DNA from: Bacteroidales bacterium | GTDB lineage: Bacteria > Bacteroidota > Bacteroidia > Bacteroidales > DTU049 | Length of the DNA: 36,972 nt | Assembly (NCBI GenBank): GCA_016937255.1 | Contig: JAFGWG010000067.1 | Location: 1 to 36,972, forward strand | Direction: 5' to 3' | Shown here: piece by piece, positions 1 to 36,951 of the stretch | How the letters are laid out: each line of letters opens with the position of its first letter | Position numbering within the stretch: position 1 is the stretch's first letter | Program-made: the position numbers and the translations under genes | The notes under the pieces: generated by a model | What the model saw: only the letters and a program-made list of their open reading frames with translations | Database searches by the model: none | Told to the model about the DNA's origin: nothing

Positions 1-1122
1 TATGATCCTGTGCTTGGCCGCATGCTTAGCCCGGATAATTATGTGCAAATGCCTGATTTTACACAGAATTTTAACCGGTATTCGTATTGTTTTAACAATC
101 CGCTTGTTTATACTGACCCGGATGGTAATTGGGCCGGATGGGACGATGTTATTGTAGGAACAATTGGGTTCGCATATGGTTATGTTTCCCATGGCCTTAC
201 AACAGGAAATTGGGGCTGGGAAGCGGTGGGTGCCGGGGCATTAAGCGCAGGTGTCTTTTTAGCAGGATACTATACGGCTGGTATGGGATCAGCAAGTTAT
301 GGAAGTATTGCAAGTGGTTTTTCATCAGCGGGACTTCAAGGTTATGCAAACACAGTTGGCTTATCTTTTGCAGGTCAAATGGTGGCAACAAGTACAATTT
401 CTTCTTTCTTTCCCTCTGTTTCTATTCCAATAGGTAATAATGCTTCAATTTCTATTTCGCCAGCAATGAGTTTTAGCCCTTCGGGTTTTAGCGGAGGGTT
501 TTCTGCTGTTGGTTCATTTCAGTCAGGAGATTTTGTATTCTCAGGAGGGTTTGGGCTAAATAATATAGCAAATTCAGTTTTTGGAGGGATATCTTATTAT
601 GACAGGCCGAATGATCAGTATTTCTCATATTATGCCACTAGGTTTGGTGGAAAATATAAACAGTCAGTAGGTGGTATTGGATTTAGCAAAGGTGATTTCT
701 CATTTCGCTGGGAAAATGATTTTTATACCATGTCCGGTGATAAATACAGAACTAATGCGATGGAGTTTATGTACAAAGATTTTGTATTGGGAACTAATCT
801 TTGGACAAATTATCCCGGAAGTTACTATGATGAAAATAATACCGATAAAAATGGCCGCAACTTGCGTGGGAAACTCAACAAACATAACAATGGTGCATGG
901 AAAAATGGCCAGGTGTGGAGTTCTCCGTTGTACCTGGGGTACAGAAACGGGAACACAATAACGAGAATTGGCGTGAGTAATCCCTGGATTCAGGATCGGA
1001 CCCAAAATTTTATGCACAAGAACTTCCTCCCTGCGTATACCAACTTTTTTAACAGGTATGATCAATTCACAGGCGGTGCATGGATGTATTCCGGATATTA
1101 TAACCCTTTTACACTGTATTAA
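1..1122 (+). CDS. Rhs-family polymorphic toxin, C-terminal part (5' end outside window)
   Basis: The reading frame is open from base 1, so only the C-terminus of a much larger Rhs/YD-repeat protein is present. Residues 1-40 are the end of the Rhs-associated core: YDPVLGRMLSPDNYV, then FNRYSYCFNNP and DPDG, the usual boundary before the variable tip. After DPDG the sequence is specific to this protein: a Gly/Ala-rich hydrophobic stretch, a Gly/Ser/Phe-rich segment, then a polar C-terminal domain (about residues 200-373) with FSFRWENDF, NGQVWSSPLYLGYRNGNT and a Tyr-rich end. From memory this tail resembles bacterial polymorphic toxin type 23; that is unverified. Rhs tips are normally released toxic effectors neutralised by the next gene. 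The following lipoprotein starts 2 bases after the stop. Rhs identity is clear; the toxic activity is inferred. Confidence 0.85.
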   Translation, partial: YDPVLGRMLSPDNYVQMPDFTQNFNRYSYCFNNPLVYTDPDGNWAGWDDVIVGTIGFAYGYVSHGLTTGNWGWEAVGAGALSAGVFLAGYYTAGMGSASYGSIASGFSSAGLQGYANTVGLSFAGQMVATSTISSFFPSVSIPIGNNASISISPAMSFSPSGFSGGFSAVGSFQSGDFVFSGGFGLNNIANSVFGGISYYDRPNDQYFSYYATRFGGKYKQSVGGIGFSKGDFSFRWENDFYTMSGDKYRTNAMEFMYKDFVLGTNLWTNYPGSYYDENNTDKNGRNLRGKLNKHNNGAWKNGQVWSSPLYLGYRNGNTITRIGVSNPWIQDRTQNFMHKNFLPAYTNFFNRYDQFTGGAWMYSGYYNPFTLY

Positions 1123-24282: not shown

Positions 24283-24290
24283 TATATTTG
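24283..24290 (+). promoter_or_regulatory. -7 promoter box of recQ
   Basis: TATATTTG fits TAnnTTTG and lies 36 bases before the ATG at 24327. It overlaps an in-frame TTG at 24288 and so argues against that start. Confidence 0.6.
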
Positions 24291-24326
24291 CACACTTTAA
24301 AAATAAAGGCTGACGAGCAGCGAGCT

Positions 24327-26525
24327 ATGAAAGTAAAACAGGCAGGTGATTTGAAGCAGAATTTGAAGAAATTGTTCGGGTTTGAACGCTTCAAGGACAA
24401 CCAAGAAAAAATTATTGAGAGTATTCTTTCAGGGAAAGATACTTTTGTTATTATGCCTACCGGTGGAGGTAAATCTCTTTGTTATCAACTACCGGCGTTG
24501 ATTCAGGAGGGAACAGCAATTATTATTAGTCCGCTTATTGCCCTGATGAAAAATCAGGTGGATAATATTCGCAACCAAGGAACCGACAATGATATTGCCC
24601 ATGTAATGAATTCTTCATTATCAAAAGCAGAAATGCAGAAAGTGCATGAGGATTTGAGCAGTGGTAAAACAAAGCTTCTTTATGTGGCTCCAGAATCTTT
24701 AACCAAGGAAGATAATATTGAGTTTCTCAAGAGTATTAATATCTCATTTTACGCCATTGATGAGGCACATTGTATCTCGGAATGGGGACACGATTTTCGT
24801 CCAGAGTATCGTCGAATTCGCCCCATTGTGGAAGCAATTGGCAAAGATGTTCCTCTTATTGCATTAACAGCAACGGCTACGCCAAAGGTTCAGCAGGATA
24901 TTCTGAAGACTTTGAAAATGGAGGATCCAGATATTTATATTTCTTCTTTCAATCGACCAAATCTATATTACGAAATTCGACCTAAATATAAAGATGTTAA
25001 TAAGGATTTACTGAAGTTTGTAAAAAATAACAGCGGTAAATCTGGCATTATTTACTGTCTTAGTCGAAAAAAAACAGAAGAATTGGCAGAATTTCTTCAG
25101 GTAAACGGGGTGAGTGCATTGCCTTATCATGCAGGGTTAGAAGCGGCCGTTCGACGTCGTAATCAGGATATGTTTCTAATGGAAGAAGTGGATGTTATGG
25201 TTGCCACTATTGCATTTGGAATGGGAATTGATAAGCCTGATATTCGCTTTGTATTGCATTACGATATGCCAAAAAGTTTGGAAAGCTATTATCAGGAAAC
25301 TGGGCGTTCTGGGCGTGATGGGGGGGAAGGATTATGTATTGCATATTATAGCCTTGAAGATCTGCAGAAATTTGAGAAATTTGCCAAAGATAAAGGGGTT
25401 GCCGAGCAGGAAATAGCTCAACATCTACTATTTGAGACCATCTCCTTTGCAGAAAGTTCAGTTTGTAGACGCACTCAACTTCTACATTATTTTGGAGAAG
25501 TTTATCCCGATAAAAATTGCGAGTCTTGCGACAACTGCTTGTATCCTAAAGATAAATTCGATGCCACAGAGGAAGTAACACTGATTTTGAAAACAATAAA
25601 AGAAACACAGGAACAGTTTAAATCCAAGCAAGTTGTAGATATAATTATGGGCAGCTCATCTCCTTCAATGAAGCAGCTCAGAGCATCTTCGTTAGAATGT
25701 TTTGGTAAAGGATCTTCTAAAAATATTCGTTTTTGGAATTCGGTTATCAGACAAATTCTGATATTGAATATGATTGCGAAGGAAATTGAAAATTATGGAG
25801 TATTAAAACTAACAGAAAAAGGGAGTGATTTCTTAAATAATCCCACAGAAATGAAATTAACAAAAGACAGAAACATCGAAGAGGAAAAAGATGACTCCGG
25901 TGTAGCCTCTGGTGGACAGGGAGGAAGTGGCACAGATAAGACGCTGTTCAGCATGCTTAAAGATTTGAGAAAACAATTGGCAAAAAAGGAAAATCTTCCG
26001 CCATTTGTGATTTTTCAAGATCCTTCTTTGGAAGATATGGCCATCCAATACCCGATAACGGAGGAAGAATTGACCAATATTACCGGCGTAGGTACAGGGA
26101 AAGCTAAGAAATATGGCAAACCCTTCATAAAGCTTATTTCCGAATATGTTGAGGAAAATGATATCATGCGACCAATGGATATGGTGGTTAAATCTGCCGT
26201 AAATAAATCAGGACTTAAGGTTTACATCATTCAAACCATTGACCGTAAAATTCCATTGGAAGATATTGCAAAGGCTAAAAACTTGAAATTCAGCGAACTA
26301 CTCGATGAAGTTGAACGCATTGTGTCGAGTGGAACCCGCATCGACTTGCAATATTATATCAATGAATTTGTAGATTTGTATCATCAGGAAGAGATATTCG
26401 ACTATTTTCATTCGGCAGAAACCGATTCTATTCAGGCTGCCCTTTTGGAATTAGGAGAAAATGAATATTCTGAAGAAGAAATTCGTCTGATGAGAATTAA
26501 ATTTATGTCCGAAATCGGAAACTAA
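24327..26525 (+). CDS. recQ: ATP-dependent 3'-5' DNA helicase RecQ
   Basis: 732 aa. Helicase motifs are in order: FKDNQEKIIESIL (motif 0), MPTGGGKSLCYQLPAL (I), SPLIALMKNQV (Ia), YAIDEAHCISEWGHDFR (II, DEAH), LTATATP (III), GIIYCLSRKKTE (IV), VATIAFGMGIDKPDIRFVLHYDMPKS (V) and YYQETGRSGRDG (VI). The zinc-binding RecQ-C region has CRRTQLL, then CESCDNCLYP. A winged helix follows, then an HRDC-like segment (LRKQLAKKENLPPFVIFQDPSLEDMA) and a C-terminal extension common in Bacteroidota RecQ. It unwinds DNA in recombination repair. It starts a forward run reaching frr, with the next gene 27 bases away. Confidence 0.97.
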   Translation: MKVKQAGDLKQNLKKLFGFERFKDNQEKIIESILSGKDTFVIMPTGGGKSLCYQLPALIQEGTAIIISPLIALMKNQVDNIRNQGTDNDIAHVMNSSLSKAEMQKVHEDLSSGKTKLLYVAPESLTKEDNIEFLKSINISFYAIDEAHCISEWGHDFRPEYRRIRPIVEAIGKDVPLIALTATATPKVQQDILKTLKMEDPDIYISSFNRPNLYYEIRPKYKDVNKDLLKFVKNNSGKSGIIYCLSRKKTEELAEFLQVNGVSALPYHAGLEAAVRRRNQDMFLMEEVDVMVATIAFGMGIDKPDIRFVLHYDMPKSLESYYQETGRSGRDGGEGLCIAYYSLEDLQKFEKFAKDKGVAEQEIAQHLLFETISFAESSVCRRTQLLHYFGEVYPDKNCESCDNCLYPKDKFDATEEVTLILKTIKETQEQFKSKQVVDIIMGSSSPSMKQLRASSLECFGKGSSKNIRFWNSVIRQILILNMIAKEIENYGVLKLTEKGSDFLNNPTEMKLTKDRNIEEEKDDSGVASGGQGGSGTDKTLFSMLKDLRKQLAKKENLPPFVIFQDPSLEDMAIQYPITEEELTNITGVGTGKAKKYGKPFIKLISEYVEENDIMRPMDMVVKSAVNKSGLKVYIIQTIDRKIPLEDIAKAKNLKFSELLDEVERIVSSGTRIDLQYYINEFVDLYHQEEIFDYFHSAETDSIQAALLELGENEYSEEEIRLMRIKFMSEIGN

Positions 26526-29361: not shown

Positions 29362-29841
29362 TCAGTCTGACAATAAAGACTTCGTTGTGTAGTTCTCCCA
29401 CATCTCCCGGTCCCCGGGAAAACTGAAGAAGTTTTCATGAATGGTATTGATGTCAACCCAGAAAAGATTGACATCTCCGTTTTTCATGTTGCTTTCTAAT
29501 GAAAATTCTGATTCTGTTTTTATTTTCGCAATTTCTATGCTTGAAACCCTGTAATAAAGAGGAACAACCTGTACATTTTCATAAAATCTCGCAGGAATGA
29601 ATTTTTTCGGAATATAATGCAATTCAGTATCAGTTAGAGTGATACTGCACTCTTCCATAAACTCTCTTCTCAAGCACTCTTCAGGAGACTCGCCAAATTC
29701 CAAACCACCACCGGGAAGTTTAATCATTCTTGTGTCGAACCACTTTTCTTCGGCAACTAGGATTTTTCCCTCGTGGAGGAGAAGACCATACACGCGAATT
29801 GTGAATGGGAAATTGTGTTTTTTTGAAGATTTAATGCTCAT
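29362..29841 (-). CDS. Nudix hydrolase
   Basis: 159 aa. The Nudix box is GGLEFGESPEECLRREFMEE (G-x5-E-x7-R-E-U-x-E-E), with Cys-Ser where the usual final Gly occurs. The strand IRVYGLLLHEGKILVAEEKW is typical of NUDIX nucleoside-diphosphate hydrolases. The substrate cannot be told from sequence. The ATG at 29841 sits within the end of mnmD (ATGAGCATTAA, 11-base overlap), showing tight coupling, and is preferred to a longer start six codons upstream. It is the last gene of the lipoprotein-mnmD-Nudix unit. Confidence 0.9.
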   Translation of the reverse strand: MSIKSSKKHNFPFTIRVYGLLLHEGKILVAEEKWFDTRMIKLPGGGLEFGESPEECLRREFMEECSITLTDTELHYIPKKFIPARFYENVQVVPLYYRVSSIEIAKIKTESEFSLESNMKNGDVNLFWVDINTIHENFFSFPGDREMWENYTTKSLLSD

Positions 29842-30529
29842 GATGGTGAAAATCAGCAATCTTTTTGAACGCTCTGCTCATTTCTCTTTTTCCGCCAACT
29901 CCAGGTAGCTTGTCAACTTCAAAACCACATTCTTCCATAGTTCTACGCACTTCACCTTTTGATGAGTATGTGAGAAGCCAGCCTTCAAATCGCATGGCAT
30001 TATATAGTTTTTGAAAAACTTCTTTTGTCCATAATTCAGGCTGAACACCCGGCGAAAATGCATCGAAATATACAAGGTCAAAACTGTCATTGGGGAATTG
30101 AATGTCTTCTAGTTTGGCTTCCAGATAATTTAAAATAAAATTTTCGCCCAAATAAAACGGATATTTGCGATTGCTTGAATGAATTTTCATTATGCATTCG
30201 CGCATTTTATCACCACCTATTATTTCGTGAAAATTTAGCTGAGATCCCTCTGATAGACTTAGTGGATATGCTTCAATTCCAATATAATTTATTTGAACTT
30301 TTTTGAGCTCAGTTTCAAGAAAACTAAGTGCAGCATTTAAGCCGGTTCCAAGTCCAACTTCTAAGATATTTATCTTTTGTTTTTTCTGCAACATAGGCTT
30401 TAGCCCTGCTTCAATAAATACATGCATGCTTTCTTGTACTGCTCCATGTGTAGAATGATAATGTTCGTTGAGTTCAGGTACAAAAATACTGTTTGATCCG
30501 TCTTCTGTTACAATGAGTTTTCTTTCCAT
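29831..30529 (-). CDS. mnmD: tRNA 5-(methylaminomethyl)-2-thiouridine-type methyltransferase MnmD
   Basis: 232 aa. It matches the stand-alone methyltransferase half of MnmC: an N-terminal HYHSTHGAVQESMHVFIEAG, an S-adenosylmethionine site ILEVGLGTGLNAALSFL, an acidic residue after the next strand (YIGIEAYPL) and the signature LVYFDAFSPGVQPELWT, ending in TYSSKGEVRRTMEECGFEV. MnmD methylates the wobble uridine side chain of certain tRNAs. No FAD domain (MnmC1) is present, as usual in bacteria that encode MnmD alone. Its ATG begins the base after the stop of the upstream lipoprotein gene. Confidence 0.9.
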   Translation of the reverse strand: MERKLIVTEDGSNSIFVPELNEHYHSTHGAVQESMHVFIEAGLKPMLQKKQKINILEVGLGTGLNAALSFLETELKKVQINYIGIEAYPLSLSEGSQLNFHEIIGGDKMRECIMKIHSSNRKYPFYLGENFILNYLEAKLEDIQFPNDSFDLVYFDAFSPGVQPELWTKEVFQKLYNAMRFEGWLLTYSSKGEVRRTMEECGFEVDKLPGVGGKREMSRAFKKIADFHHHEH

Positions 30530-31813
30530 CTATCTATTGTATAATATGTGAATATCCCTTATGCTGTCGGGCATTACAAGTGGTCCACTTTCTACTGCTC
30601 CCGGCCAGGTATAGGAATATATTTCTTTGCCGCTGCTAAGGTACAGTCTTTCGTCCACTTCGTCAAATGTGAGTATGCCATTTTTCGCTCCGAGATCAAA
30701 ATCGCTCGAAGTGTTTGAATTATAATTATATACAACTAATCCATTGTTGTGCGAGAGCACAAATGTATTATTTCCACAATCGGTTGCGCTATAAATATTT
30801 CCGCTGTTAAAACTGCTAATTTGTGTGAAAATTAGTGTATTAGTGTTTAGTGTATAAACCTCTGATTGAGTTCCATTATTGGCAAATACCAAAACCAATT
30901 CGCCGCTTACTCTGAAAAAATCTACTACATTAAACGAAGTGAAAATAATGTCTTTTACCATACCCGAAATTTCATATATAACACCAAATGCCTCTGCTCC
31001 ACCAGTGTGATATTGGAAGCTGCCTAAAATATATGTTCCGTCGTATTTAAGTTTTTCTGGGCGAAAAAGGCTAACCAAATATGAAAATTTTAGGTTTCCA
31101 TTTCCATAATAGCCATTGATATAGCCTTCGTATAGCCCCAATAGCAAATCTTTATTCTGATAACTAATGCAATTAAAATATGAGAATGGTGGATTTATTA
31201 TAGCTGGTATTTCGTTATTTATTGCCCCGCTATTAGCATCAATAGTGAAAAAAGAGCCTGTATATTTTCCAATGCTATAAATATTTTGGTTTTCGGAATT
31301 TACTGCACCGCCTGCAAAATCACCATTAAGTTCTTTAAATTGTTGCGATTGCAGGAGACTGTCAACTTTGTATATGTGTGTTTGAAGGCCAGTTTCATAG
31401 CAATACGCGATCAAAGCTAAACTTCTTTTAGGAATGGATGACAGGGAAATATTTACATACTTCCTTTCGGTGTCATCTCCATTTGAAGCTTCAATCATTA
31501 AATAGTACTGCCCGCTCTCAATATTGCTATTGCTAATGGAATAGTATTCATTAATGCTGAAATTTGAGCCATTCGGAATAATGCTCAGTACCGGATTTAC
31601 ATTAATGAGATCAGTATTGAGTAAATTAATCTCAATATACTCAAGATCAATGCTAGATTGTACGTTTGCTAAAACATGAATGCTATCACCAACAGACCAC
31701 CCAGACAAATGACTTGGGCTAAAAATTTCTATTACAGGGGGCGGAGCAGTTTCCTTTTTGCACGAAAAAAGAAACGCAACACCGAATACCAAAAAAGTGA
31801 TAATTCTGCCCAT
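30530..31813 (-). CDS. Ig-like plus beta-propeller lipoprotein
   Basis: 427 aa. The signal peptide ends FLFSC (Cys18), followed by KKETAPPP, a typical surface-lipoprotein linker. Residues 28-125 look like an Ig-like domain (IEIFSPSHLSGWSVGDSIHVLANVQS). The remainder is a run of beta strands with repeated blade-like units (YIYSIGKYTG, LLLGLYEG, YILGSFQY, VLVFANNGTQ, YSATDCGNNTFVLSHNNG, ERLYLSSGKEIYSY) consistent with a beta-propeller. No enzyme motif is visible. The stop codon abuts the mnmD start. Start ATG 31813; a 12-base palindrome lies 16 bases upstream. Confidence 0.8.
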   Translation of the reverse strand: MGRIITFLVFGVAFLFSCKKETAPPPVIEIFSPSHLSGWSVGDSIHVLANVQSSIDLEYIEINLLNTDLINVNPVLSIIPNGSNFSINEYYSISNSNIESGQYYLMIEASNGDDTERKYVNISLSSIPKRSLALIAYCYETGLQTHIYKVDSLLQSQQFKELNGDFAGGAVNSENQNIYSIGKYTGSFFTIDANSGAINNEIPAIINPPFSYFNCISYQNKDLLLGLYEGYINGYYGNGNLKFSYLVSLFRPEKLKYDGTYILGSFQYHTGGAEAFGVIYEISGMVKDIIFTSFNVVDFFRVSGELVLVFANNGTQSEVYTLNTNTLIFTQISSFNSGNIYSATDCGNNTFVLSHNNGLVVYNYNSNTSSDFDLGAKNGILTFDEVDERLYLSSGKEIYSYTWPGAVESGPLVMPDSIRDIHILYNR

Positions 31814-31869: not shown

Positions 31870-32577
31870 ATGAATAATAAAGGAAAACTTGAGGAAATTA
31901 TGTTTCTGGACATAGAAACGGTTCCATTATTTGAAAATTATTCTCAATTGAATCCTCGCATGCAGGGATTATGGGATAAAAAAGCGTCTTATTTGCTGAA
32001 AAATGAAGACGATACTACAGAAAAAGTGTATGAGAAGGCTGGTATTTTTGCTGAATTTGGAAAAGTGATTTGTGTGTCTGTTGGTGTGATTCAAGGCGAC
32101 AAGTTGCATATTAAGAGCTTTTACGGGGATGATGAAAATTCTGTGCTTAAAGATTTTTCAAGATCTCTAAGTTTGTTTTCTAAAGGCCCTAATTACAAGC
32201 TCTGTGCACATAATGGAAAGGAATTCGATTTTCCATTTCTTTGTAGGAGAATGCTTATTCATCAAATACCCATTCCTGAAATTCTGAATTCTCAGGGCAA
32301 AAAACCTTGGGAGATATTGAATATTGACACCATGGAGCTATGGAAGTTTGGTGATTATAAGAATTTCACTTCATTAGATTTGTTAACCGAATTATTCGAT
32401 ATTCCTTCTCCAAAAGACGATATTTCGGGTGCTGATGTGGCAAGAGTGTATTATGAAGAGAAAGATCTGAAGCGTGTAGTCGAATATTGTCAGAAAGACG
32501 TTGTTAGTCTCACACAGGTCTATCTTCGCCTCACCATGCAGCCGTTAATTCAGGATGTAAACATTTATTTTGTATGA
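31870..32577 (+). CDS. Predicted DEDD-type 3'-5' exonuclease (PolB-like exonuclease domain)
   Basis: 235 aa. Three exonuclease motifs are present: MFLDIETVPL (Exo I, Asp14 and Glu16), LCAHNGKEFDFPFLCRRM (Exo II) and VEYCQKDVVSLTQVYLRL (Exo III, YxxxD type). The arrangement matches predicted PolB-like 3'-5' exonucleases, probably acting on single-stranded DNA or RNA ends with two metal ions. There is no polymerase domain. The downstream Cas4-like gene begins in a 4-base overlap (ATGA), so the two are co-translated and probably work on the same substrate. Confidence 0.88.
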   Translation: MNNKGKLEEIMFLDIETVPLFENYSQLNPRMQGLWDKKASYLLKNEDDTTEKVYEKAGIFAEFGKVICVSVGVIQGDKLHIKSFYGDDENSVLKDFSRSLSLFSKGPNYKLCAHNGKEFDFPFLCRRMLIHQIPIPEILNSQGKKPWEILNIDTMELWKFGDYKNFTSLDLLTELFDIPSPKDDISGADVARVYYEEKDLKRVVEYCQKDVVSLTQVYLRLTMQPLIQDVNIYFV

Positions 32578-33983
32578 GTGAGAAGAAGAAAAGCAAGAAA
32601 AGCCTTTCCAAATCAGCATATATTCGTGGCCGCCAATGCCTAAAATCATTATATCTTTACAAGAATAGATATTTTCTTCGCGATCCTATCTCTTATGAGC
32701 AGCAACTTAAATTCAGAAGAGGCCATAGTGTTGGTGATCTGGCACATGAGCTTTTCCCCGGAGGGGTTAATCTAAAGCCAGGGCATGCTTCTAAATATGC
32801 AAAAGCTGCAGAAGAAACAAAGCTTGCAATTTCTACAAAAACCCCGAACTTGTATGAAGCCGTTTTCATGACGGATAAATACGTGGCTATCATGGATATT
32901 CTTTCGCTAAAAAATGACGTGTATGGCGCATGGGAAGTAAAAAGCTCTCTTCGAATATCAAAAACATATTTGTGGGATCTGGCTTTTCAATATTTTGTAA
33001 TGTCAGAACTTGAATTTAGACCAGAGAGTGCTGGAATTATTCACGTAAATTCAGAATATGTTTACAATGGGAACTTGAATCCGTTTGATTTTTTTACAAA
33101 AGTAGATCTAACGAAAGAGGTCATTGCTCTTCAGGATGAAACAAAACCGGCAGCCGAGGAAGCGTTTGAAATATTGTTTGCCGATTCATCGCCATCAATA
33201 GATGTTGGACCACATTGTTTTGATCCTTATCCCTGCGAATTTTATTCGCATTGTCATAAAAAACACCTGAGTTCTTCAGTTTTAAAACTGGCAGGACTAA
33301 GTTTGGAATCAAAATATAGGCTGCTTTTGAACGAAAACAGTGGATCTGAATTATGTGATTTCGGAGATGAGTTTCTTCGCAGGCAATATGAGGCTATTAA
33401 AACCAGAAAAGAAAGCTTTGATGAGGGTTTAATAGAAGAATTATCGGAAAATATTTTGTCTGCAGTTCAGCCTTCGTTTCTTCATGTTTTAAGTACACGT
33501 AAAGCTGTTCCAGAACATGTTGGGGATAAGCCGTTCACTGTAGTGCCATTGGCTGCAGCTATTGTTTGTGGCGAGATTGTGGAGTTTAGGTCTTTTGAAA
33601 ACTCCGATTTGCCTATGCAAGAATTACTTGGTTTTATTGATGATATTGGAAGCCAGCTTCTTGTGTTTTTAGAAACAGATGAATTTCTGCCTTCAGATTT
33701 TTATAATAGATGCGAAGAAAAGGAAATTCAATTGGTGAATCTTTATAATTATTTTATGGAGGGAATCTGGTGCAGTCATGTATTCTCGCCCGATTATTCG
33801 GCGGAGCGTATTAGAAATTCTGCCATGAAATCAAGGTCGCAATATGAAAATCGCCTTGCACTCCTACTCGATATCGATAAGAAAAAAGTGGAGAATATTC
33901 CCTTAAGTATTCAGAACTATTGTACATCAAATGCTATTGCCGTTAAAAATATTCTTGGTTCAATATATGAGAATAGAATATAA
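32574..33983 (+). CDS. Cas4/RecB-like PD-(D/E)XK nuclease with predicted Fe-S cluster (DUF2779-like)
   Basis: 469 aa. The N-terminus SLSKSAYIRGRQCLKSLYLYKNR and the nuclease core match the Cas4/RecB/DUF2779 group. His58 (GDLAHELF), Asp108 (AIMDIL) and Glu121/Lys123 (AWEVKSS) form the PD-(D/E)XK site, with Gln139-Tyr140 beyond. Cys22, Cys215, Cys221 and Cys227 are spaced as one upstream plus three downstream cysteines, as in Cas4-type [4Fe-4S] clusters. The C-terminal 230 residues resemble the position of the RNase H-like exonuclease half of DUF2779 proteins but lack an obvious DxE motif. That function may be supplied by the overlapping upstream exonuclease. No cas genes or CRISPR array lie nearby. 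Confidence 0.8.
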   Translation: MSEKKKSKKSLSKSAYIRGRQCLKSLYLYKNRYFLRDPISYEQQLKFRRGHSVGDLAHELFPGGVNLKPGHASKYAKAAEETKLAISTKTPNLYEAVFMTDKYVAIMDILSLKNDVYGAWEVKSSLRISKTYLWDLAFQYFVMSELEFRPESAGIIHVNSEYVYNGNLNPFDFFTKVDLTKEVIALQDETKPAAEEAFEILFADSSPSIDVGPHCFDPYPCEFYSHCHKKHLSSSVLKLAGLSLESKYRLLLNENSGSELCDFGDEFLRRQYEAIKTRKESFDEGLIEELSENILSAVQPSFLHVLSTRKAVPEHVGDKPFTVVPLAAAIVCGEIVEFRSFENSDLPMQELLGFIDDIGSQLLVFLETDEFLPSDFYNRCEEKEIQLVNLYNYFMEGIWCSHVFSPDYSAERIRNSAMKSRSQYENRLALLLDIDKKKVENIPLSIQNYCTSNAIAVKNILGSIYENRI

Positions 33984-34118: not shown

Positions 34119-35654
34119 ATGGAAGATAAGCAGAATAAAAAGACAAATTCTATACGAAAGAACGGTACAAATAAACGGACAGCCTTGCCTGTTGAGCATG
34201 GTCGTGTACCCCCGCAGGCAATTGATCTTGAAGAGGTTATCCTTGGGGCACTTATGCTGGAACAAATGGCTGTAAATACTGTTATAGATATTTTGCGTCC
34301 AGAAATTTTTTATAAGGATAGTCATCAGGTTATTTTCATGGCCATTCAAGATCTCTTTGCAAAAAGTTCTCCTATTGATATGTTGACCGTTACTGATGAG
34401 TTGCGGACAATGAGCAAGCTTGAAGAAGTGGGGGGAGCTCATTATATTGCTTATCTTACCAATAGAGTTGTTTCTGCTGCAAATGTGGAATTTCATGCGC
34501 GCATTGTTGCGCAGAAATATATTCAACGCCGACTTATTGAAATTTCTTCGGAAATAATAAATGATGCTTTTGAAGACTCCACCGATGTGTTTGATTTACT
34601 TGATAAAGCAGAGGATAAGCTTTTCAAGGTTAATGAGCAGAATTTACGCAGGGGTATAGAATCTATGCCAAATCTTTTGCGTGCAGCCAAAGAGCAAATT
34701 GAAAAAGCTTCTCAAGTTGAAGGTGGTCTTAGTGGAGTTCCATCTGGATTTAAGGATCTCGATGCTTTAACAGCAGGTTGGCAACCTTCCGACCTCATTA
34801 TTATTGCGGCACGTCCTGGTATGGGTAAAACGGCTTTTGTTTTGTCAATGGCTAAAAATATGGCGGTAATCAGCGAACGCCCGGTTGCTGTTTTTTCTTT
34901 AGAGATGAGTGCTACTCAGCTTGTTATGCGATTAATTTCTTCGGAGGCAGGAGTCAGCAGCGAAAGCTTGAGAAAAGGAGATCTTTCTCCTACACAATGG
35001 AAAAGTTTGAATGATAATATGGACAATTTGTCCGGGGCACCTATTTTTATTGATGATACACCAGCATTGTCGATTTTTGAACTCAGAGCAAAAGCACGAC
35101 GTTTAAAACAACAACATAACATTCAGTGCATTATTGTTGATTATCTTCAGCTAATGACCGCGCAGGTGGATAAGAGCGGAAACCGTGAGCAGGAAATTTC
35201 TACCATTTCCAGATCCTTAAAAGCTTTAGCCAAAGAATTGAGTATTCCTGTTATTACCTTATCACAATTAAGTCGTGAAGTGGAAAAGCGGCCGGGTATG
35301 AAGCGTCCGCAATTATCTGACCTTCGTGAATCAGGCGCCATTGAGCAGGATGCCGATATGGTATTGTTTATCTATAGGGAAGAATACTATTTTAAGGATG
35401 ATCCAAAACATGAAAATCAGGATATACAGAATAAAGCAGAGTTGATTGTTGCCAAGCATAGAAATGGGCCGTTGGATACTGTTCATCTACGCTTTGTTAA
35501 TCAGTTTGCAAGATTTGAAAACAGCGAAGGAAGTATGTCTGACTTTAACGACTATATGGGAGGATCAGATTTCAATTCTATTGCGGTGACGAGGCAATCA
35601 AAAATGAATGATGAGCCACCTGAGGACATTATTCCTAAAGATCCTAATTTCTAA
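34119..35654 (+). CDS. dnaB: Replicative DNA helicase DnaB
   Basis: 511 aa. The N-terminal domain (RVPPQAIDLEEVILGALMLE...DILRPEIFYKDSHQVIF) interacts with primase. The RecA-like C-terminal domain has IIAARPGMGKTAFVLSMAKN (Walker A), VAVFSLEMSATQLVMRLIS, CIIVDYLQLM (Walker B), ITLSQLSREVEKRPGMKRPQLSDLRESGAIEQDADMVLFIYREEYY (including the arginine finger region) and a C-terminal acidic tail. It unwinds the fork ahead of the polymerase. No intein is present. The ATG at 34119 is preferred over an in-frame TTG two codons earlier. A TATTTTTG box at 34108 is very close to the start, so the real promoter may be farther up. Confidence 0.97.
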   Translation: MEDKQNKKTNSIRKNGTNKRTALPVEHGRVPPQAIDLEEVILGALMLEQMAVNTVIDILRPEIFYKDSHQVIFMAIQDLFAKSSPIDMLTVTDELRTMSKLEEVGGAHYIAYLTNRVVSAANVEFHARIVAQKYIQRRLIEISSEIINDAFEDSTDVFDLLDKAEDKLFKVNEQNLRRGIESMPNLLRAAKEQIEKASQVEGGLSGVPSGFKDLDALTAGWQPSDLIIIAARPGMGKTAFVLSMAKNMAVISERPVAVFSLEMSATQLVMRLISSEAGVSSESLRKGDLSPTQWKSLNDNMDNLSGAPIFIDDTPALSIFELRAKARRLKQQHNIQCIIVDYLQLMTAQVDKSGNREQEISTISRSLKALAKELSIPVITLSQLSREVEKRPGMKRPQLSDLRESGAIEQDADMVLFIYREEYYFKDDPKHENQDIQNKAELIVAKHRNGPLDTVHLRFVNQFARFENSEGSMSDFNDYMGGSDFNSIAVTRQSKMNDEPPEDIIPKDPNF

Positions 35655-35691: not shown

Positions 35692-36951
35692 ATGAAAAAA
35701 CTATTACTTCTTGCCACTGTATTATTCATTTGTTTGTCGGGGTATTCTACGCATCTTCTCATTCCTATGGATAAGAGTCAAAAGAACCACCTGAAAGCAT
35801 ACGGTATTACCTATTGGGTTTTGCAAAACAATCTTGAAGCAGAATGGTTATTGAATTATCGTGGAGGTAGTTTTTTGATGGATTATTCCAAAACCATTCA
35901 GGATGAGTGCAGCATACGTGGGGTAAGTGTTGAAGTTGTTTCTGATGCTCAGGCAGTTAGCATTCACGATGAAATTGCCGCTCCTTCAGCCAATATGGAA
36001 GTAATGAAGCTCACCCGGGCTCCAAAAGTAGCAGTATATGCTCCAAAAACCAATCAGCCATGGGATGATGCAGTTACACTAGTGCTTACGTATGCAGAAA
36101 TTCCATATGACCAGATATATGACGAGGAAGTATTGAAAGGTCTTTTACCAACATACGATTGGCTGCATTTGCATCATGAAGATTTTACGGGCCAATATGG
36201 AAAATTCTGGGCGAATTACCAAAATACACCTTGGTATGTAAATGATGTGCGGGAATCGGAAAAATCAGCAAAATCGTTGGGTTTTAGCAAGGTGTCTGAA
36301 CTGAAACTTGCAGTTGCAAAGAAAATTCGCGATTTTGTAGCAGGAGGAGGATATCTTTTTGCCATGTGCAGTGCACCCGATAGTTACGATGTAGCTTTGG
36401 CTGCGGAAGGGGTTGATATATGCGGCCCCATGTTCGATGGAGATGCCATGGACCCCCAAGCACAAAGTAAACTCGATTTTTCTAAAACTTTTGCTTTTAC
36501 CAATTTTAAAATCAGCATTAATCCATACGAATACGAGATTTCCACCATCGATGTTACTAATTTCAGGCGTGCAGTAAGACCCGAAGATGATTTCTTTGCC
36601 CTCTTTGAATTCTCCGCTAAATGGGATCCCGTTCCAACAATGCTATGTCAGAATCATACGCAAATGATTAAAGGCTTCTATGGGCAAACCACCGGATTTA
36701 GAAAAGAATGCATAAAGTCTGAAGTTCTAATTATGGGCGAAAATAAGGCTTTGGGGGAAGTTAGGTATATTCATGGTGAATATGGTAAAGGTACTTGGAC
36801 CTATCTGAGTGGACACGATCCTGAAGATTATCAGCACTTTGTATACGACCCGCCTACTGATCTTAATCTCTTTTCAAATTCTCCAGGATATCGCCTTATC
36901 TTAAATAATGTACTTTTCCCTGCTGCTAAAAAGAAGAAGCAGAAGACTTAA
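35692..36951 (+). CDS. Secreted protein of unknown function, often labelled 'asparagine synthetase B'
   Basis: 419 aa. A signal peptide (KKLLLLATVLFICLSGYS) precedes HLLIPMDKSQKNHLKAYGITYWVLQ, a start recognisable from many Bacteroidota proteins that databases call asparagine synthetase B. There is no N-terminal catalytic Cys, no glutaminase domain and no PP-loop, so the name is not supported. Residues 110-260 (KVAVYAPKTNQPWDDAVTLVLTYAEIPYDQIYDEEVL, WLHLHHEDFTGQYGKF, VAGGGYLFAMCSAPDS) resemble a glutamine-amidotransferase-like or ThuA-like alpha/beta fold. A Lys-rich C-terminus follows. Its role in the envelope is unknown. Confidence 0.75.
   Translation: MKKLLLLATVLFICLSGYSTHLLIPMDKSQKNHLKAYGITYWVLQNNLEAEWLLNYRGGSFLMDYSKTIQDECSIRGVSVEVVSDAQAVSIHDEIAAPSANMEVMKLTRAPKVAVYAPKTNQPWDDAVTLVLTYAEIPYDQIYDEEVLKGLLPTYDWLHLHHEDFTGQYGKFWANYQNTPWYVNDVRESEKSAKSLGFSKVSELKLAVAKKIRDFVAGGGYLFAMCSAPDSYDVALAAEGVDICGPMFDGDAMDPQAQSKLDFSKTFAFTNFKISINPYEYEISTIDVTNFRRAVRPEDDFFALFEFSAKWDPVPTMLCQNHTQMIKGFYGQTTGFRKECIKSEVLIMGENKALGEVRYIHGEYGKGTWTYLSGHDPEDYQHFVYDPPTDLNLFSNSPGYRLILNNVLFPAAKKKKQKT

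Follow-up and report, generated by a model that had tools for sequence, protein, structure and literature searches.

Two adjacent nuclease genes, exo and nuc, overlap by four bases in a Bacteroidales genome, and the second encodes a protein whose C-terminal half has the look of an inactivated exonuclease. Do their products form a single machine for processing DNA ends, in which the separate exonuclease does the work that the inactivated half has given up? The genes lie in a 36,972-nucleotide stretch of DNA, referred to here as the window. A sequence-only reading had described a DEDD exonuclease gene preceding, with a 4-base overlap, a gene for a Cas4/RecB-like nuclease of DUF2779 kinship that has a full PD-(D/E)XK site, four cysteines placed as in Cas4 and no CRISPR context; it suggested that the C-terminal half was RNase H-like and lacked catalytic acids, and proposed a split two-nuclease machine for repair or defence. 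The anatomy so described was borne out, from the two plus-strand reading frames and their shared ATGA (Table 1) to the fold of the C-terminal half. The functional proposal fared less evenly.

The DUF2779 family is widespread, and related genomes amount to nature's own domain dissection, the C-terminal half being intact, dead (i.e. with its catalytic acids replaced) or deleted while the other half is unchanged. With these three natural states, it can be tested which half matters and whether a separate exonuclease takes over. The series also bears on the role of stand-alone Cas4-like nucleases beyond CRISPR.

Table 1. Features of the exo–nuc locus and its conserved neighbours, in window coordinates
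Feature	Position	Strand	Basis
exo, stand-alone DEDD 3'-5' exonuclease, 235 aa, predicted active	31870..32577	+	PF10108, PHROG, DEDD residues
exo motif I, D14-I-E16	31909..31917	+	
exo motif II, H114NGKEFD120	32209..32229	+	
exo motif III, YCQKD210	32485..32499	+	
ATGA overlap of exo stop and nuc start, 4 bases	32574..32577	+	sequence
nuc, DUF2779-type protein (diverged) of 469 aa: Cas4-like nuclease followed by a dead RNase H-like domain	32574..33983	+	alignment, tree, AlphaFold2, Foldseek
nuc C22, candidate cluster cysteine	32637..32639	+	invariant 134/134
nuc D108, PD-(D/E)XK aspartate	32895..32897	+	invariant 134/134
nuc E121-V-K123, PD-(D/E)XK	32934..32942	+	E, K invariant 134/134
nuc Q139, RecB-type motif glutamine	32988..32990	+	invariant 134/134
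nuc C215, C221, C227, candidate cluster cysteines	33216..33254	+	invariant 134/134
nuc C-terminal RNase H-like domain, residues 292-469, catalytic acids replaced	33447..33980	+	profile match, models, fold search, residue tally
dnaB, replicative helicase, downstream neighbour	34119..35654 (ATG 34119; ORF-list start 34113)	+	PF03796 2.7e-112
MnmD-type methyltransferase, upstream flank of exo block	29831..30529	-	PF05430; cluster in 29 loci
427-aa protein c4, no Pfam match, same conserved block	30530..31813	-	cluster c4 in ~23 loci

The separate exonuclease

The exo product matches the Pfam family PF10108 (DNA_pol_B_exo2; E 4.9e-18) as well as a PHROG family of 3'-5' exonucleases (3.8e-40), and its DEDD residues D14, E16, D120, D153 and D210 are invariant in an alignment with ten homologues. 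On profile match and motifs alike, it is thus a member of PF10108 (COG3298), a family labelled 'predicted 3'-5' exonuclease related to PolB', in which it is ordinary apart from its neighbour. Whatever the state of nuc, 48 of 50 genomes have a single copy of exo, and genomes with an intact DUF2779 protein retain it too. Within a sample of the order comprising 198 genomes, 25 of them with nuc relatives, exo was found in 14 of 15 dead-form genomes versus 122 of the 198 overall. No exo was detected in one 99%-complete genome (G101), in which a dead nuc adjoins dnaB.

A diverged DUF2779 protein with a Cas4-like N-terminal domain

The nuc product matches nothing in Pfam at E up to 1 or in NCBIfam, and its PADLOC match to Cas4 is weak (E 0.0027). 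Its relatives were gathered from a scan of public genomes with a profile of the dead forms, which yielded 80 loci, and from class-wide samples, together giving 134 aligned proteins. The protein aligns end to end with members of DUF2779 (PF11074), a family matched by 20 of the 24 aligned homologues; because nuc of the window itself falls below the PF11074 threshold and has one of the longest branches in the tree, it is best filed as a diverged relative rather than a standard member. According to an earlier prediction, DUF2779 is an RNase H-like exonuclease; it occurs together with DUF83, a Cas4-type nuclease (PMC3985635), and a search of the literature found no study of its function.

The D, ExK and Q motifs of Cas4/RecB-like PD-(D/E)XK nucleases are all present in nuc. 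Nine N-domain residues (C22, E95, D108, E121, K123, Q139, C215, C221 and C227) are invariant in 134/134 relatives, so neither the active site nor the four cysteines can be put down to chance. The AlphaFold2 model of the whole protein (pLDDT 87, pTM 0.82) has two domains, the first of which was matched by Foldseek to Cas4 (4r5q, E 2.4e-4), Cas4-Cas1, RecE and MGME1. From their Cas4-like layout, the four cysteines are putative iron-sulfur cluster ligands. In fold and cysteine layout, the N-domain is akin to Cas4 and solo-Cas4 proteins (PF01930) such as Pcal_0546, and like solo Cas4 it lies outside cas loci; however, nuc has the additional C-domain, and the short nuc forms, which look like a solo Cas4, derive from its loss.

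A C-terminal domain that has lost its catalytic acids

The C-domain is intact in 55 of the 134 proteins, dead in 60 (nuc of the window included) and absent from 19, counts that are not population frequencies, since the 80 loci were drawn with a dead-form profile. Proteins of the last group are only ~230-300 aa long. In a tree of the N-domain, the dead forms make up essentially one clade with moderate support and most short forms are nested inside it; the exception is an intact spirochaete protein (L123) that is placed within the dead clade, and dead or short forms outside the main clade imply additional, independent losses. In one genome (G027), a dead nuc directly beside exo (L148, G027:C17:10000-22000) is accompanied by two intact DUF2779 copies elsewhere (L026, L028), and dead and intact forms can thus coexist. 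At another locus (L202, G537:C8), a DUF2779 gene is in several pieces, has internal stops and is apparently a recent pseudogene.

The identity of the dead domain was settled by comparing its profile with that of intact DUF2779 C-domains (99.9%, E 7.9e-32). Modelled alone, the domain reached a pLDDT of 83.7; Foldseek paired the second domain of the whole model with RNase H-like exonucleases and also with exonuclease regions in family-B polymerases, and a search with the domain only had the latter as its best meaningful PDB matches (TM 0.51-0.52 by query length), along with integrase cores, at modest E-values. Judging by the models, the RNase H exonuclease fold is retained in the dead domain. 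All five acids are present in 55/55 intact members and are variably replaced among the 60 dead ones. The window protein has the changes D304H and E306L in motif I, D389N in the IDL motif and D453N in motif III; it has E370 at the motif-II position, where only 11 of the 60 dead members have a glutamate, and the IDL aspartate is retained in 31 of the 60. Compared with DUF2779 proteins, then, nuc shares the Cas4-like N-domain, four cysteines and RNase H-like C-domain in a single chain, but it has lost the C-domain acids and adjoins exo and dnaB.

Among pairs of dead forms, dN/dS is 0.16-0.34 for the C-domain versus 0.06-0.13 for the N-domain, whereas intact pairs (C-domain 0.07-0.08) have no such relaxation; by this measure, dead C-domains are under relaxed but purifying selection. 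That nuc might be a pseudogene was ruled out by its open frames and by dN/dS values well below 1. The dead domain was also compared with the neighbouring exo; that profile comparison (2.3%) was not significant and gives no sign that exo is a detached nuc domain.

Gene neighbourhood

Where nuc is dead or short, the genes usually run mnmD and c4 on the minus strand, then exo, nuc and dnaB, with exo directly 5' of nuc in 30 loci and dnaB directly 3' in 30. The spacing of exo and nuc, on the same strand, is typically 8-50 bp; in the window, their overlap makes translational coupling of the two genes possible. The survey of neighbourhoods that the earlier reading called for found exo within 4 kb of nuc at 44 of 74 dead or short loci and at none of the 53 intact loci, and dnaB within 4 kb downstream at 42 of 52 assessable dead or short loci and at none of 10 intact ones. 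Because the rows share ancestry, the raw contrast in linkage (Fisher p 1.8e-14) is not counted here as independent evidence. On the tree, exo linkage has essentially one ancestry, and a test of independent pairs, of which there are too few, was not significant.

Evolutionary distances offer a second view of the pair. Those of nuc track dnaB (r 0.84), and nuc thus appears to be mostly vertically inherited. With dnaB controlled for, N-domain and exo distances retain a partial correlation (r 0.33-0.37, p 0.001; in the smallest set 0.28, p 0.03), and C-domain and exo distances do not. This covariation hints weakly at a functional tie that bypasses the dead domain.

The c4 gene is the divergent neighbour upstream of exo and is kept in ~23 loci; its product may be secreted or exposed at the surface. 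A gene for a 419-aa protein (c10; 35692-36951, plus strand in the window) that has no significant match in Pfam lies downstream of dnaB in 14 loci.

Proposed function and rival explanations

We propose that nuc is a DUF2779-type nuclease whose N-terminal domain, with its PD-(D/E)XK site and putative four-cysteine cluster, would attack DNA ends that are single-stranded or flapped, probably with 5'-3' polarity, as in Cas4 and MGME1. Its C-domain would have lost 3'-5' exonuclease activity and persist as a dispensable structural or binding module. In the window's lineage, the gene would have settled between dnaB and the gene for an active DEDD exonuclease, and during replication or repair the two nucleases would most likely process DNA ends jointly. 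The 3'-5' step would then fall to exo, whereas intact family members would perform it in cis through their predicted exonuclease half. Cas4 nucleases degrade single-stranded DNA ends (PMC3466216, PMC4176176), and in mitochondria the human protein MGME1 works with the POLG 3'-5' exonuclease and with Twinkle, a helicase, to degrade linear DNA and trim flaps (PMC5928156). That trio likewise combines a RecB-like single-strand nuclease (the Foldseek match), a DEDD 3'-5' exonuclease and a DnaB-like helicase, and by analogy Exo and Nuc may attack both strands of an end, or both sides of a flap, with opposite polarity. The likeness is one of analogy only, since the two systems are not homologous as systems and the POLG exonuclease sits within a polymerase. 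MGME1 is not known to have an iron-sulfur cluster or an RNase H-like domain.

Taken whole, this reading of a housekeeping end-processing pair, with exo as the 3'-5' trimming enzyme and a dead C-domain, has in our judgement an even chance of being right. Gene order and distance covariation are compatible with cooperation between Exo and Nuc, and a link to DnaB may exist as well. The chief rival is neighbourhood without partnership, in which nuc entered an mnmD-exo-dnaB block once, its C-domain decayed for unrelated reasons and its product does no joint work with exo, an account that we consider possible, if somewhat doubtful. The block, in part or whole (mnmD-c4-exo-dnaB-c10), does occur without nuc (G050, G130, G012, G134 and G152), or with an FKBP-type or other gene in its place (G124, G005 and G117); since exo-dnaB synteny exists without nuc, the latter may only fill a slot. 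The DEDD acids have also been lost elsewhere without exo linkage, at least two other families (f141 and f133) containing dead or short nuc with no exo nearby, the linkage is phylogenetically clustered, and exo is near-universal and single-copy. Yet exo and nuc abut without dnaB at three loci (L062, L071 and L078) and, in G027, amid different neighbours outside the dnaB block, and both the ATGA overlap and the residual covariation of exo with the N-domain speak against mere adjacency.

Three further explanations compete with the housekeeping pair. An anti-phage defence module is very improbable: two nucleases do share one operon, and a defence role has been put forward for solo-Cas4 genes (PMC5704561), but nuc has no relatives in phage or viral collections, its recurrent neighbours include no defence-type families, and its distances follow those of dnaB, as expected of vertical inheritance. 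So is a C-domain that remains catalytic through a rearranged active site; for all that E370 is kept in the window, the IDL aspartate persists in about half of the dead members and dN/dS lies below 1, the D and E of motif I and the D of motif III have given way to unrelated residues, which vary from member to member, and relatives have deleted the whole domain. It is likewise very improbable that nuc works in the genome's CRISPR adaptation as a stand-alone Cas4, as its fold, its cysteines and a Cas9/Cas1 locus on another contig of the same genome might suggest, because the neighbours found for it are housekeeping genes, with no adjacent cas1 or cas2 that would mark a CRISPR-associated Cas4, and Cas1 was undetectable in 8 of 14 other dead-form genomes. 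A mobile element was also rejected, the plasmid matches being distant DUF2779 proteins and both the viral scan and the phage search being empty of nuc relatives.

How much of the split two-nuclease machine survives? The RNase H-like half is real and the pair is kept in many genomes, so that neither of the refuting outcomes named in the earlier reading came about, and a two-enzyme unit split between two proteins may exist. The notion that exo replaces the dead half is weakened by its single-copy presence across nuc states, the unlinked dead and short forms, the genome without exo and the block without nuc; because one insertion into a conserved block could also explain the linkage, the split-machine idea is not established. 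As for repair or defence, a repair or replication role is plausible for the pair and nothing favours the defence half of the suggestion. In its boldest version, by analogy with the mitochondrial trio, Exo, the Cas4-like nuclease and DnaB would form a bacterial end-degrading or flap-trimming unit born of an un-fused two-nuclease protein, whose cis 3'-5' domain died, was replaced in trans by Exo, became a docking platform and finally disappeared; we consider this unlikely.

Other genes of the window and its genome

The CRISPR locus of the window's genome is of type II (L204, G000:C86, 3156-10141) and encodes a Cas9-like protein of 1369 aa and Cas1, between which lie 217-aa and 377-aa ORFs with no PADLOC family match. 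Near the start of the window's contig is a gene (10-1122, plus strand) for a protein with a Bacterial toxin 23 domain (Ntox23, PF15528; E 1.4e-24), followed by genes for a leucine-rich repeat (LRR) protein and two proteins of unknown family. The window also contains another DNA repair gene, encoding a full-length RecQ helicase with DEAD, RQC and HRDC domains (24288-26525, plus strand), which lies ~5 kb upstream of the exo-nuc pair.
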